Below, one piece after another: positions 7,254 through 11,642 of a stretch of 42,647 nucleotides of DNA. Position numbers and translations under genes: made by a program. Each line of letters opens with the position of its first letter. Positions within the stretch are counted from its first letter, which is position 1. Origin of the DNA: Pseudomonadota bacterium. Its GTDB lineage: Bacteria; Pseudomonadota; Gammaproteobacteria; Acidiferrobacterales; UBA6901. The stretch covers positions 10,579-53,225 of the forward strand of contig JAJYCY010000009.1 of NCBI GenBank assembly GCA_021778035.1, written 5' to 3'. The notes beneath the pieces were generated by a model that saw only the letters and a program-made list of their open reading frames with translations, was not told the origin of the DNA and ran no database searches.

Positions 7254-8345
7254 TCAGGCCGCAGTCGATGCGGGTGCGTGCTGCTGGCGTTCGAGTGCCC
7301 AGTGTACGTGTTCGCGCACGAGCGCTGACGGATTGCGCGCGCAAACGGTGAGCGCCGCCACTGCAGCCGGATCGTGCGGGGCGTTGCCGAGGGCAACGGC
7401 AATGTTGCGCAGCCAGCACTCGTAGCCGATGCGCCGGAGGGCGGAGCCTTCGGTGCGGTGCAGGAATTCCTCTTCGCTCCAGCCCAGCAGCTCCGCCAGC
7501 GCGGGTGCGTCCAGTCCGTGACGGGGTGTGAAAGCGGCAGGGGCGCCGGTTGGCGCGAAGCGGTTCCAGGGACAGACAGCCTGGCAGTCGTCGCAGCCGA
7601 AGATGCGGTTGCCGATCAATGGCCGCAGCTCGACCGGGATGGACGTGCGCAGCTCGATGGTCAGGTAGGCGATGCAGCGGCGTGCATCGAGTTCGTAGGG
7701 CGCCACGATGGCGCCGGTCGGACAGGCATCGATGCAGCGCCGGCAGCGGCCACAGTGGTCCGTTGCGGGAGCATCAGGTGGCAGTGGCAGGTCGGTATAC
7801 AGCTCGCCGAGGAAAAACCAGGACCCGGCGTCACGGCTGACGAGGTTGGTGTGTTTCCCGATCCATCCCAGCCCGGCGTTGCGCGCGAGCGGTTTTTCGA
7901 GAACCGGGGCGCTGTCGGCAAAGGCCCGGTAGCCGAAGGCCCCGGTCACTGATTCGATGTGCCGGGCGAGTGCCTGCAGCCGGGTGCGCATCAGGCGGTG
8001 GTAATCGCGCCCGAGGGCATAGCGGGCGATGTATCCGAGCGCAGGATCGGCCAGTACCGATTCCATTACGGCCGCATCCCGCGGCAGGTAGTTCATGCGC
8101 ACCGAGATTACCCGCAGCGTCCCGGCAACCAGGTCCGCCGGCCGGCTGCGGCGGGTACCATGCTGCTCCATGTAGTGCATGGCCCCGTGCCGTCCCTGCG
8201 CCAGCCAGTCGAGCAGCCGCCGCTCATCATCAGCGAGATCAATACCGGTGATGCCGACCTGGTCGAAGCCGAGCGACCGCCCCCACGTCCGTATGTCCCG
8301 GACCAGGCGGTGGAAATCGACCGTCTGCGTTGGAGCCATGGCCAT
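7254..8345 (-). CDS. queG: epoxyqueuosine reductase QueG
   Basis: This enzyme performs the last step of queuosine synthesis in tRNA, reducing epoxyqueuosine with cobalamin and two 4Fe-4S clusters. The 363-residue protein contains the expected ferredoxin-like cysteine sets: CGRCRRCIDACPTGAI and, further on, CDDCQAVCPWN. The C-terminal part looks like the HEAT-like repeat region common in this family. There are two possible starts, 8345 (MAMAP) and 8339; AGGGGA lies at a good distance from the first. It is divergent from nnr with only 20 bp between the two start codons. Confidence 0.96.
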   Translation of the reverse strand: MAMAPTQTVDFHRLVRDIRTWGRSLGFDQVGITGIDLADDERRLLDWLAQGRHGAMHYMEQHGTRRSRPADLVAGTLRVISVRMNYLPRDAAVMESVLADPALGYIARYALGRDYHRLMRTRLQALARHIESVTGAFGYRAFADSAPVLEKPLARNAGLGWIGKHTNLVSRDAGSWFFLGELYTDLPLPPDAPATDHCGRCRRCIDACPTGAIVAPYELDARRCIAYLTIELRTSIPVELRPLIGNRIFGCDDCQAVCPWNRFAPTGAPAAFTPRHGLDAPALAELLGWSEEEFLHRTEGSALRRIGYECWLRNIAVALGNAPHDPAAVAALTVCARNPSALVREHVHWALERQQHAPASTAA

Positions 8346-8365
8346 TAGTCCCCTATGATACCCGT
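8346..8365. promoter_or_regulatory. queG/nnr divergent gap with symmetric -10-like element
   Basis: The only bases between the two divergent start codons include CTATGATACC. Read forward it gives TATGAT at 8354-8359, five of six bases of the sigma70 -10. Read in reverse it gives TATCAT at 8360-8355. For the plus strand, a weak TTGGAG sits 18 bp upstream at 8330-8335, and the predicted start of transcription falls on the nnr ATG at 8366. This is a sequence match only; no transcript data were available. Confidence 0.4.
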
Positions 8366-9856
8366 ATGGAGGAACTGCCCGAAGCCCTGTTCAGTACCGC
8401 GCAGGTACTGGACATCGAGCGCCGCGCCACGTCCGGCCCGGTGACCGAACCACTCATGGAACGTGCCGGCCGCTCGGTGTTGACGCTGCTGCGCGGCCGC
8501 TGGCCGCGTGCCAGACGGGTCACGGTCATCTGCGGCCCGGGCAACAACGGTGGCGACGGCTACGTGGCAGCGCGCCTGGCGCGGGAGGCGGGCATGGCGG
8601 TGCAGGTGCTCAGTCCGGCGCCGCATGTGCGGTTGCAGGGCGATGCGGCGCATGCCCGCGGACGGCTGCTCGCCGCTGGCGTGGCAGTCGAACCGTTCAG
8701 TGCCGGAGCCCTCGGGGCTGCCGACGTGGTGGTGGATGCGCTGTTCGGTACCGGCCTGCAGCGTCCGGTCGAAGGCGAATGGCTCGCGGCGGTCCGCGCC
8801 ATCAATGCCTGCGGTGTGCCGGTGCTGTCGGTGGACCTGCCGTCCGGACTGGACGCTGACAGTGGCCGGATCCTCGGCGAGGCCGTGCGCGCGGATGTCA
8901 CCCAGTGCATGATCGTTCTCAAGCCCGGACTGTTCACCGGTTTCGGGCGTGAATGCTGCGGAGAGATCTGCCATGCCGGCCTCGATGTGCCGGCCGGGAT
9001 TTCCGCGGCGGTGATGCCGGCTGCGCGGCGCATCGTGCCGGCCAACCTGCGCCATCTGCTGCATCCGCGGCCGCGGCATGCCCACAAGGGAGGCGCTGGC
9101 CGCGTGCTGGTGGTCGGCGGCGGTCCGGGCATGGGCGGGGCAGCGCATCTGGCGGGCGTGGCCGCCTACCGGGCAGGGGCCGGACTGGTGACGGTCGCGA
9201 CCCATCCTGCGCATGCCGCGTGCCTCGCCCAGGGGCGGCCCGAACTCATCGTCCATGGAGTGGACGGACCAGCCGGTCTGGAGGTCCTGCTGGAACGGGC
9301 CGATGTCATTGCTGCCGGCCCCGGGCTCGGACAGGATCGCTGGGCGCAGGAACTGTGGGCGGTGCTGCGCACGGTCGAACGGCCGCTGGTGGTGGATGCG
9401 GACGCGCTGAATCTGCTCGCTGCCACGGCGTTTGTGCGTCAGGACTGGATTCTCACGCCACACCCCGGCGAGGCGGCGCGTCTGCTCGGGTGGTCCGCGG
9501 CAGATGTGCAGAACGACCGGTTTGCGGCGCTACGGCAAATCACCCGGCGCTATGGCGGCACATGCATCCTCAAGGGGTCGGGCAGCCTGGTGTGGGGCGG
9601 GGGAGATGAGCCGGTGTGGCTGTGCGACCGTGGCAATCCGGGCATGGCAAGCGGTGGCATGGGTGACGTGCTGACCGGGATTATCGCCGGCCTGCAGGCC
9701 CAGGGACTTCCGGCACTGCACGCCGCACGTATGGGTGTCTGGTGCCATGCGGCGGCGGCCGACGCGGCTGTCCGGCGTGATGGCGAGCGCGGACTGCTGG
9801 CGCTCGACCTGTTGCCCCGGGTGCGGGTGCTGGTAAATGAGCTGGCCCGCGCATGA
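8366..9856 (+). CDS. nnr: bifunctional NAD(P)H-hydrate epimerase / ADP-dependent dehydratase
   Basis: This repair enzyme converts both epimers of hydrated NAD(P)H back to NAD(P)H. Its 496 residues form two domains. The N-terminal epimerase (YjeF_N, about 1-215) contains GPGNNGGDGYVAARL. The C-terminal kinase-fold dehydratase (about 230-496) contains KGGAGRVLVVGGGPGMGGA, the DADALNLL block and GMASGGMGDVLTG. ATG 8366 is chosen; the frame is open to 8330, but that overlaps queG. No clear ribosome site precedes the ATG, which fits a leaderless transcript from the -10-like element at 8354. The gene overlaps tsaE by four bases (ATGA). Confidence 0.96.
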   Translation: MEELPEALFSTAQVLDIERRATSGPVTEPLMERAGRSVLTLLRGRWPRARRVTVICGPGNNGGDGYVAARLAREAGMAVQVLSPAPHVRLQGDAAHARGRLLAAGVAVEPFSAGALGAADVVVDALFGTGLQRPVEGEWLAAVRAINACGVPVLSVDLPSGLDADSGRILGEAVRADVTQCMIVLKPGLFTGFGRECCGEICHAGLDVPAGISAAVMPAARRIVPANLRHLLHPRPRHAHKGGAGRVLVVGGGPGMGGAAHLAGVAAYRAGAGLVTVATHPAHAACLAQGRPELIVHGVDGPAGLEVLLERADVIAAGPGLGQDRWAQELWAVLRTVERPLVVDADALNLLAATAFVRQDWILTPHPGEAARLLGWSAADVQNDRFAALRQITRRYGGTCILKGSGSLVWGGGDEPVWLCDRGNPGMASGGMGDVLTGIIAGLQAQGLPALHAARMGVWCHAAAADAAVRRDGERGLLALDLLPRVRVLVNELARA

Positions 9857-10308
9857 GCATTGTGCGCCGCGTGGACGATGAACGGGGCATGGAAGCGCTG
9901 GGGGCGGCGCTCGCGGCGCGGCTGATGCCGGCTGCGGTGATATTCCTGCACGGGGAGCTTGGCGCGGGCAAGACCACGCTGGTGCGCGGCCTGCTGCGCG
10001 CACTCGGGTACGCAGGTGCGGTGAAAAGCCCCACCTATACGCTGGTCGAGCCGTACGATCTTGATTGCGGCCGGCTCTACCATTTCGATCTCTATCGCAT
10101 GCAGGATCCCGCGGAACTGGAATTTCTCGGATTTCGTGATTATCTTGAAAATCATGCGACATGCATCGTCGAGTGGCCGGAACGCGGCGGCGCGATGCTG
10201 CCGGCAGCGGATATTGACGTTTTCATCAGCAGGGTTGATCATGCGCGCAGCGTGCAACTGGTTGCGAACAGTGACGGCGGGGCGGCACTCCTGAGCGGCC
10301 TTGAATGA
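9853..10308 (+). CDS. tsaE: tRNA threonylcarbamoyladenosine biosynthesis ATPase TsaE
   Basis: This is the ATPase partner of TsaB-TsaD, which builds the t6A base at position 37 of ANN-decoding tRNAs. The product has 151 residues. Walker A is GELGAGKTT (near residue 36), followed by SPTYTLVEPY and YHFDLYRM, which are typical of the family, and EWPERG near the Walker-B-like end. It starts inside the nnr stop codon and ends inside the amiC start codon (ATGA at both ends), so the three genes should be translationally coupled. The nnr-tsaE-amiC order is common in Gammaproteobacteria. Confidence 0.97.
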   Translation: MSIVRRVDDERGMEALGAALAARLMPAAVIFLHGELGAGKTTLVRGLLRALGYAGAVKSPTYTLVEPYDLDCGRLYHFDLYRMQDPAELEFLGFRDYLENHATCIVEWPERGGAMLPAADIDVFISRVDHARSVQLVANSDGGAALLSGLE

Positions 10309-11642
10309 GACCGGTACGCCTCGTCTTCTTTTTTTTCGCTGTTCTTCTGCTAATTCCCGTTCCGGGTCTGGCCCGCGTCGTATCGGTAGAGAATGTGCGC
10401 ATGTGGCCGGCGCCCGATTATACGCGGCTGGTGTTCGACCTCAGCGGATCAGTCGGTTACCGGCTGTTCACGCTCAGCAATCCCGACCGGGTGGTGATCG
10501 ACCTGCACGATGCACGGCTCGTGCACCCGTTGCCGGCGCTCGGCAACAACAGCGCGATCGTTGCCGGTCTGCGCAGCGGACCCCGTCCGGGCCACGGTGT
10601 GCGGATTGTCGTCGATCTGCGGCTTGCCGCCCAGCCCCGCAGCTTCCTGCTTAGACCCGCTGGCCCCTATGGTCACCGTCTGGTCATCGACCTGTACGAC
10701 CCGGCCAAGGCGGCGCGCGACCGGGCGCGTCTCAGGGCCATGGAGATAGCGCCGCCGTCGCGCGAATTTGTGGTGGTGATCGACCCTGGACACGGCGGCG
10801 ATGATCCGGGCGCTACCGGACATATGGGCACGGAAGAAAAGAACGTCGTGCTCGCGATTGCGCGCGATCTTGACCGGCTGGTGTCGGCACAGCCCGGCAT
10901 GAAGGCCATCATGACCCGTACCGGCGACTACTATGTGCCGCTGGTCACGCGGCGGCGCATGGCGCGCGGGGCGGACGTGTTCATCTCCATCCATGCCGAC
11001 TCCGATCCTGGCCGCAGTCCGGATGCCCGTGGCGCCTCGGTCTACGCGCTCTCGGAGCGGGGAGCGACCAGCGCGCTGGCAAAAGCGCTGGCCAGCAATG
11101 AAAACGGATCCGACTGGATCGGTGGCGTGAATCTGGGGGACGTGGAGAGTGGAGTGGGGCAGGTACTGGGGGATCTCACGAAATCAGCGACCATTGCCGA
11201 CAGCCTGAGGCTCGGAGATGACATGCTGCCCTATCTCCAGCGGGTGGCACCGCTGCATTCGCGCAAGGTCGAGCAGGCGGGTTTCGTGGTGCTCAAGTCG
11301 CCAGTGCCGTCGGTGCTGATTGAGACCGGGTTTATCTCCAATCCCCGCGACGAGCGCAGGCTGCGCAGCCCGGTTTTCCAGGAGGCCACCGCCCGTGCCA
11401 TATTCAAAGGATTGAGGCGGGCGGAGCCCTGGCTGCTGGCAAGACGCGGCGTTCCGCTCAGGATCGCGCGGGCTCCCGCCGCCCCGCATGAATATACCGT
11501 GCGCCCCGGGGATACCCTGATGCGCATTGCGCAGAGCCATGGCACTACCGTCGCGGCGCTGCGTAACGCCAATCGCCTGCGGGGCAGCACGATCTTCAGC
11601 GGCATGCAGCTGCGCATCCCGGCAGCCGGCGGGCGCGGCTGA
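10305..11642 (+). CDS. amiC: N-acetylmuramoyl-L-alanine amidase (AmiC type) with C-terminal LysM
   Basis: This periplasmic zinc amidase cuts septal peptidoglycan so that daughter cells separate. The 445-residue product has a signal peptide (1-24, long Phe/Leu core), an AMIN targeting domain (about 25-140) and an Amidase_3 domain (about 155-385). Zinc-site motifs visible are DPGHGG (H163), ISIHADS and the catalytic glutamate region VLIETGFISN. One LysM peptidoglycan-binding repeat closes the protein (about 396-440, YTVRPGDTLMRIA). E. coli AmiC lacks LysM, but such a tail is common in other Gammaproteobacteria. It is the last gene of the nnr-tsaE-amiC unit; mutL, which often follows, is absent here. 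Confidence 0.96.
   Translation: MRPVRLVFFFFAVLLLIPVPGLARVVSVENVRMWPAPDYTRLVFDLSGSVGYRLFTLSNPDRVVIDLHDARLVHPLPALGNNSAIVAGLRSGPRPGHGVRIVVDLRLAAQPRSFLLRPAGPYGHRLVIDLYDPAKAARDRARLRAMEIAPPSREFVVVIDPGHGGDDPGATGHMGTEEKNVVLAIARDLDRLVSAQPGMKAIMTRTGDYYVPLVTRRRMARGADVFISIHADSDPGRSPDARGASVYALSERGATSALAKALASNENGSDWIGGVNLGDVESGVGQVLGDLTKSATIADSLRLGDDMLPYLQRVAPLHSRKVEQAGFVVLKSPVPSVLIETGFISNPRDERRLRSPVFQEATARAIFKGLRRAEPWLLARRGVPLRIARAPAAPHEYTVRPGDTLMRIAQSHGTTVAALRNANRLRGSTIFSGMQLRIPAAGGRG

Follow-up and report, generated by a model that had tools for sequence, protein, structure and literature searches.

The 20-bp gap separating the divergent genes queG and nnr in a stretch of gammaproteobacterial DNA (42,647 bases, here called the window) is best read as holding a conserved bidirectional -10 element of the sigma70 type, which is likely to give leaderless or nearly leaderless mRNAs of both genes. 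A sequence-only reading of the window had proposed a symmetric two-way -10 with a leaderless nnr. This is supported by recurrence in relatives, by geometry and by peaks of -10 matches at spacers of 6–8 bp before the start codon (N6–N8), the start sites being predicted from geometry. The proposed scope was too narrow: leaderlessness would not be confined to nnr, as by the same geometry queG is also predicted to be leaderless or nearly so.

The gap would function as a minimal bidirectional promoter, in which RNA polymerase with the housekeeping sigma factor would recognise TATGATA (Table 1) in both directions. In one orientation, transcription would start on the A of the nnr AUG and yield a leaderless nnr-tsaE-amidase mRNA; these three genes probably form one transcript. 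In the other, it would start 0–4 nt before the queG AUG and yield a nearly leaderless queG mRNA. The ribosome would then initiate on the 5'-terminal AUG without a Shine-Dalgarno sequence. Since one site would serve both directions, a single polymerase could use it at a time, and the two directions would be mutually exclusive.

Table 1. Features of the queG/nnr region of the window, with the basis of each assignment.
Feature	Positions	Strand	Basis or remark
queG, epoxyqueuosine reductase	7254..8345	-	TIGR00276, 487 bits, above cut-off
queG ATG (8345-8343) with predicted start range (8349-8345)	8343..8349	-	geometry, inferred
queG/nnr intergenic gap, 20 bp	8346..8365	.	sequence reading
AGGGGA, read as queG promoter discriminator, not Shine-Dalgarno	8349..8354	-	position; not kept in congeners
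TATGATA, symmetric heptamer, predicted shared bidirectional -10	8354..8360	.	sequence; kept in relatives
TATGAT, predicted nnr -10 hexamer, 6 bp before ATG	8354..8359	+	sequence and relatives
TATCAT, predicted queG -10 hexamer, 9 bp before ATG	8355..8360	-	sequence and relatives
nnr ATG, with 8366 as predicted transcription start	8366..8368	+	geometry, inferred
nnr (yjeF), NAD(P)HX epimerase/dehydratase, two-domain	8366..9856	+	TIGR00196 226 bits, TIGR00197 146 bits, above cut-offs
tsaE	9853..10308	+	overlaps nnr end by 4 nt
N-acetylmuramoyl-alanine amidase gene, AmiC/AmiA/AmiB-like	10305..11642	+	below models' cut-offs; overlaps tsaE end by 4 nt

The gap and its predicted start points

TATGAT on the forward strand (8354-8359) and TATCAT on the reverse strand (8360-8355) lie over the same seven positions of the gap, as had been described. 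TATNATA occurs once in the window, and that copy is the one in the 20-bp gap. Shuffled windows hold 0.94 copies on average, and 63 of 100 hold at least one; the presence of TATNATA in the window is ordinary, its placement inside the gap is not. A consensus scan of 7300-9900 for -35/-10 pairs returned none (shuffles 0.3), which is weak evidence, because a scan that demands a -35 cannot report TATGATA either.

Six bases (8360-8365) lie between the forward -10 and the nnr ATG, and with the usual 7 bp from -10 to start point transcription is predicted to begin on the A of that ATG, in agreement with the sequence-only reading. That nnr lacks a Shine-Dalgarno sequence was likewise confirmed in the window. 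On the reverse strand, the six bases 8354-8349 (AGGGGA) lead to 8348, and the queG ATG begins at 8345; the predicted leader is 0–4 nt long, according to which base serves as the start (the A at 8349, at 8346 or at 8345). The TANNNT element thus begins 12 bp before the ATG of nnr (N6) and 15 bp before that of queG (N9). The spacers of relatives with a strictly shared element range from N6 to N9; with N9 at queG, the window is at the long end, so the queG leader is uncertain. Both genes start with ATG.

AGGGGA had been taken to argue that the queG mRNA starts further upstream. This argument is a poor one, since AGGGGA coincides with the six bases that follow the reverse -10, so that most or all of it would be untranscribed, and since it is not kept in congeners, in which the position reads AGAGAT (L002-L004) or AAAAGC (L005). 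AGGGGA was rejected as a queG Shine-Dalgarno sequence on the same two grounds; that queG has no true one depends on this interpretation. Upstream of its ATG, the nnr frame stays open and has a TTG at 8330. A start there was rejected, because the alignable N-terminus (MEELPEAL) begins at ATG 8366 in congeners and because the 6- and 7-bp spacers of relatives would frame-shift a coding heptamer.

The heptamer and -10 spacing in relatives

Loci came from near genomes (60 sampled, 39 with queG, 30 loci taken), from named genome records (the best 80 loci of a longer list) and from a class search of 276 genomes, 216 of them with a match, which gave 80 regions, one per coded family, among the best-scoring matches listed; E. 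coli MG1655 was added to the class-wide set. None of these 191 loci was picked for the element. After removal of 40 loci that lacked paired queG and nnr hits, 10 whose gap was a duplicate, eight with an unaligned N-terminus and one too far, 132 were kept: 83 from relatives and named records (set A) and 49 from the class (set B, 48 of the 80 regions plus E. coli). Eight further loci came from families picked for having the element (set C). One locus dropped for its unaligned N-terminus (L159) reads, by eye, CAT-TTGTCG-TATGATA-CCGGTC-ATG. Identical gap strings in different surroundings stayed in the main counts, and counts of distinct strings are given beside them.

Under the strict rule, one TATNATA serving both genes, the element is shared in 22/132 loci, all with gaps of 17–21 bp, and in 12 coded families (f1, f5, f7, f24, f27, f39, f77, f83, f92, f100, f121 and f133); related loci are not independent in this and the following recurrence counts. 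Where the two ATGs are 17–21 bp apart, TATNATA lies between them in 22 of 27 loci of sets A and B (20/25 distinct strings), under an any-pair rule that favours the ATG pair with the heptamer where several are possible. With set C the count is 29/34 (23/28 distinct), seven loci being from element-chosen families. Shuffling the gaps of these 34 loci gives a mean of 0.11 and a maximum of 3 in 5000 shuffles. A count by nearest ATG pair gave 15/19 for gaps of 17–21 bp and 16/36 for gaps of 10–30 bp; it was replaced by the any-pair rule because reverse-strand ATGs inside TATNATA made false short gaps.

In the window's own family, TATSATA lies in a 19–20 bp gap in all six sampled genomes with both gene starts (L001-L005, L020). 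In family f39 TATGATA is present in 6/6 gap-holding loci, which belong to five genomes of four genera and have four different gap strings and flank sets. Family f121 shares the heptamer in two of three loci, and the third (L230) keeps it beside nnr only. Loss of the element in relatives with the same divergent layout had been named as an observation that would refute the promoter. The element is kept throughout the six genomes of the family and recurs in 11 other families; it is not universal, as 22 of the 49 class-wide loci, E. coli included, have none at either gene. A quick tree was built from 138 Nnr proteins, with 40 of its 135 inner branches starred; on it, shared status requires at least 15 changes (shuffled mean 27.3; 0/500 as low). 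Its distribution on this tree is clustered but patchy, and neither one ancient origin nor many origins is claimed.

Two single cases were seen in these sets. Genome G215 has two different queG/nnr loci (L223, L227), both with the shared heptamer; with 5% contamination listed for it, the genome could be a mixed bin. In L082 and L107, which have a 23-bp gap, TATACT (queG, N7) and TAAACT (nnr, N6) overlap on opposite strands.

Matches to TATAAT of at least 5/6 were counted spacer by spacer, upstream of any candidate ATG in frame. For nnr in set A, 30 of 81 loci have such a match at N6 and 14 have one at N7 (other spacers 0–3); for queG, the counts are 14, 15 and 15 of 79 at N6, N7 and N8 (other spacers 0–4). 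Set B gives 8, 10 and 1 for nnr (of 48; other spacers 0–4) and 7, 9 and 3 for queG (of 46; other spacers 0–2). Summed over N6–N8, set A has an element at nnr in 45/83 loci and at queG in 44/83 (both genes 24, either 65), with control 3-nt bins of mean 2.1 (nnr) and 1.9 (queG) and maximum 6. The corresponding values for set B are 19/49 at each gene (both 12, either 26), with control means of 1.4 each and maximum 6. As far as spacing tells, such peaks are the pattern expected of leaderless genes, and they are found at both genes across the class. A conserved -35 was looked for across the loci and none is visible, so the promoter may be weak.

Genes with an N6–N8 element nearly always start with ATG (nnr 64/66, queG 63/64; 127/130 together); the share of ATG among candidate start codons is 388/611. 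Leaderless initiation in E. coli prefers AUG (PMC9031893). A Shine-Dalgarno sequence of at least five bases precedes nnr in 1/66 loci with the element vs. 15/63 without it (Fisher p 9e-5). No such contrast is seen for queG (2/64 vs. 2/61).

A looser shared class, with hexamers overlapping within 2 bp and spacers of N6–N9, comprises 31 of 140 loci. For nnr, 20 of these loci have the hexamer TATGAT and eight have TATCAT. The seventh base is A in 30, which is largely forced by the definition; the centre is G or C in 28/31, which is not, as TATAATA would qualify too. Among the 45 loci with an unshared nnr element, 26 have TATAAT, 41 have A as the fourth base and three have A as the seventh. By these counts, the shared elements mostly avoid the directional consensus of nnr, as balanced two-way use would favour. 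What speaks against this is that a G/C centre also occurs in 13/44 unshared queG elements, and A at position 7 in 22/44, several of them from loci of the window's own taxonomic order with nnr further off. Relatedness inflates the p value of the nnr contrast (2.5e-13), so the contrast itself is relied on and not the number.

Other layouts and other explanations

It is unlikely that TATGATA is a promoter of queG only, that nnr owes its transcription to another site (e.g., through read-through) and that the N6 spacer of nnr is a by-product of the short gap. Two layouts are in line with such an arrangement. In several loci from the same taxonomic order (such as L008, L009, L011, L012 and L014), 7 bp separate the heptamer from the queG ATG, and nnr is 40–310 bp away and has its own Shine-Dalgarno-like stretch of 4–5 bases. 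In family f4 (same order as the window; G009 and 17 others), nnr does sit behind another gene: orn is just upstream on the same strand in 18/18 genomes (19 of 20 loci, L255-L274, two of which are the same place). No queG was found in any of these 18 genomes, three matches in f4 loci being at chance level (E 0.44–0.77), and QueH was found in 17. At the 19 f4 loci with a candidate nnr start, no -10-like hexamer (at least 4/6) was seen at N4–N9 before any candidate. As nnr behind orn has no element, presence of the element follows the divergent arrangement, at least as judged from f4. What speaks against a queG-only promoter is that nnr has its own peak at N6–N7, to which the 26 loci with an unshared TATAAT at N6–N9 contribute.

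The long queG/nnr gaps of L008, L011 and L017 contain similar repeat-like stretches by eye, e.g., CGCAAAGACGCGAAG in L008, which has a partial inverted counterpart. These stretches may have been inserted between the element and nnr.

An operator for a regulator of both genes, overlapping or replacing the promoter, is still less probable. TATSATA is a short palindrome, mostly with a G/C centre, and is kept despite differing flanks, as an operator might be. Its distance to both ATGs is nevertheless that of a -10 element, and other lineages hold plainly directional -10s (TATAAT, TACAAT) at the same positions. Sixteen kept loci of Dyella, Rhodanobacter, Frateuria and Dokdonella have separate elements for queG and nnr, where they have any, with TATAAT at N6 of nnr in 11/16 and TACAAT at N6 of queG in 9/16 (hand count). 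Seven base pairs are also short for an operator.

That the heptamer is a chance AT-rich string, and that ordinary leadered mRNAs of both genes start inside the neighbouring gene, is very improbable: a single gap could arise by chance, and AGGGGA lies 9 nt before a second in-frame queG ATG (8339), a plausible Shine-Dalgarno distance, but 22/27 and 29/34 loci carry the heptamer (0.11 expected for the 34), the N6–N8 peaks are sharp, and AGGGGA and the second ATG are both absent from L002-L004.

Known systems and genome background

Bidirectional promoters with a symmetric -10 are established, and their starts are commonly 10, 18 or 23 bp apart, most often 18 (PMC10268837, PMC12825309). The window resembles the promoters of Warman, Grainger and colleagues in its near-symmetric shared -10 and in the distance between its predicted starts, 8366 and 8348, which is 18 bp if each is 7 bp from the -10. 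Given these starts, 8355 and 8359 are reciprocally -11 and -7 for the two directions. The window differs from these promoters in that queG and nnr are conserved genes whose predicted mRNAs have no leader or almost none; with the start codons at or beside the predicted start points, hardly anything but the -10 is left between the genes. In gaps of 17 bp (L123, L223-L225, L228), the A of each AUG would supply the -18T of the other direction. This arrangement does not hold in the window, where position -18 (8348) is G.

Leaderless TA-led genes have TANNNT about 12 bp before the start codon, and those predicted in gamma-Proteobacteria are mostly from Xanthomonadales and Legionellales (PMC3160421). 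The Rhodanobacteraceae loci with two separate elements fit this pattern. Different from it is one element common to two divergent genes, found at loci of at least 12 coded families. E. coli MG1655 has the same divergent gene order as the window; there the coding regions of the two genes meet head to head with a 2-bp overlap (4394066-4394067; L111 5567-5568), and no N6–N9 element of the queG/nnr type was found at either gene. Searches of the open-access literature, for the queG/yjeF pair and for leaderless genes with divergent, bidirectional or overlapping promoters, showed no account of the present case. Bidirectional -10s and leaderless mRNAs are each known; their combination, kept at one gene pair, is new. 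With it, a conserved pair of housekeeping genes would join the leaderless genes of Gammaproteobacteria.

A further proposal, which we put forward tentatively and hold to be somewhat doubtful, is that this is a widely kept, doubly leaderless bidirectional promoter with both start codons on start points, in which the balanced TATSATA centre fixes a low, mutually exclusive ratio and selection acts on the balance itself. It is proposed because directional copies at nnr use TATAAT and shared copies mostly avoid it. If true, two unrelated functions would be tied in their expression ratio: tRNA queuosine maturation, and the repair of NAD(P)HX, whose gene is followed by tsaE. Symmetric -10s are reportedly common, and selection on bidirectionality itself is hard to show. 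The same pair in many families, with a symmetric heptamer in a gap of 17–21 bp vs. directional versions at nnr, would offer a comparative and experimental system for such selection.

Within 320 kb of the window genome, a -10 at N5–N8 precedes two of 207 crudely called genes, one of which is nnr; crude as the calls are, this suggests that the genome does not make general use of leaderless expression. TATNATA-N4-7-ATG occurs 10 times in the 2.17-Mb assembly vs. four times in the reversed control, and only the copy at nnr has CAT at the mirror position. CAT-N5-TATSATA-N5-ATG has 13 sites in 12 of the 276 class genomes, three of them at queG/nnr, vs. nine in the reversed control. Outside queG/nnr the strict double geometry is therefore at about the chance level (10 sites vs. 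nine). At one of these other sites (L243), an open frame of 230 codons lies on one side and one of at least 102 codons on the other. The variant CAT-N7-TATSATA-N5-ATG has six sites in the 60 relatives and none in the control, and four of the six are at queG/nnr by their coordinates (L249-L252).
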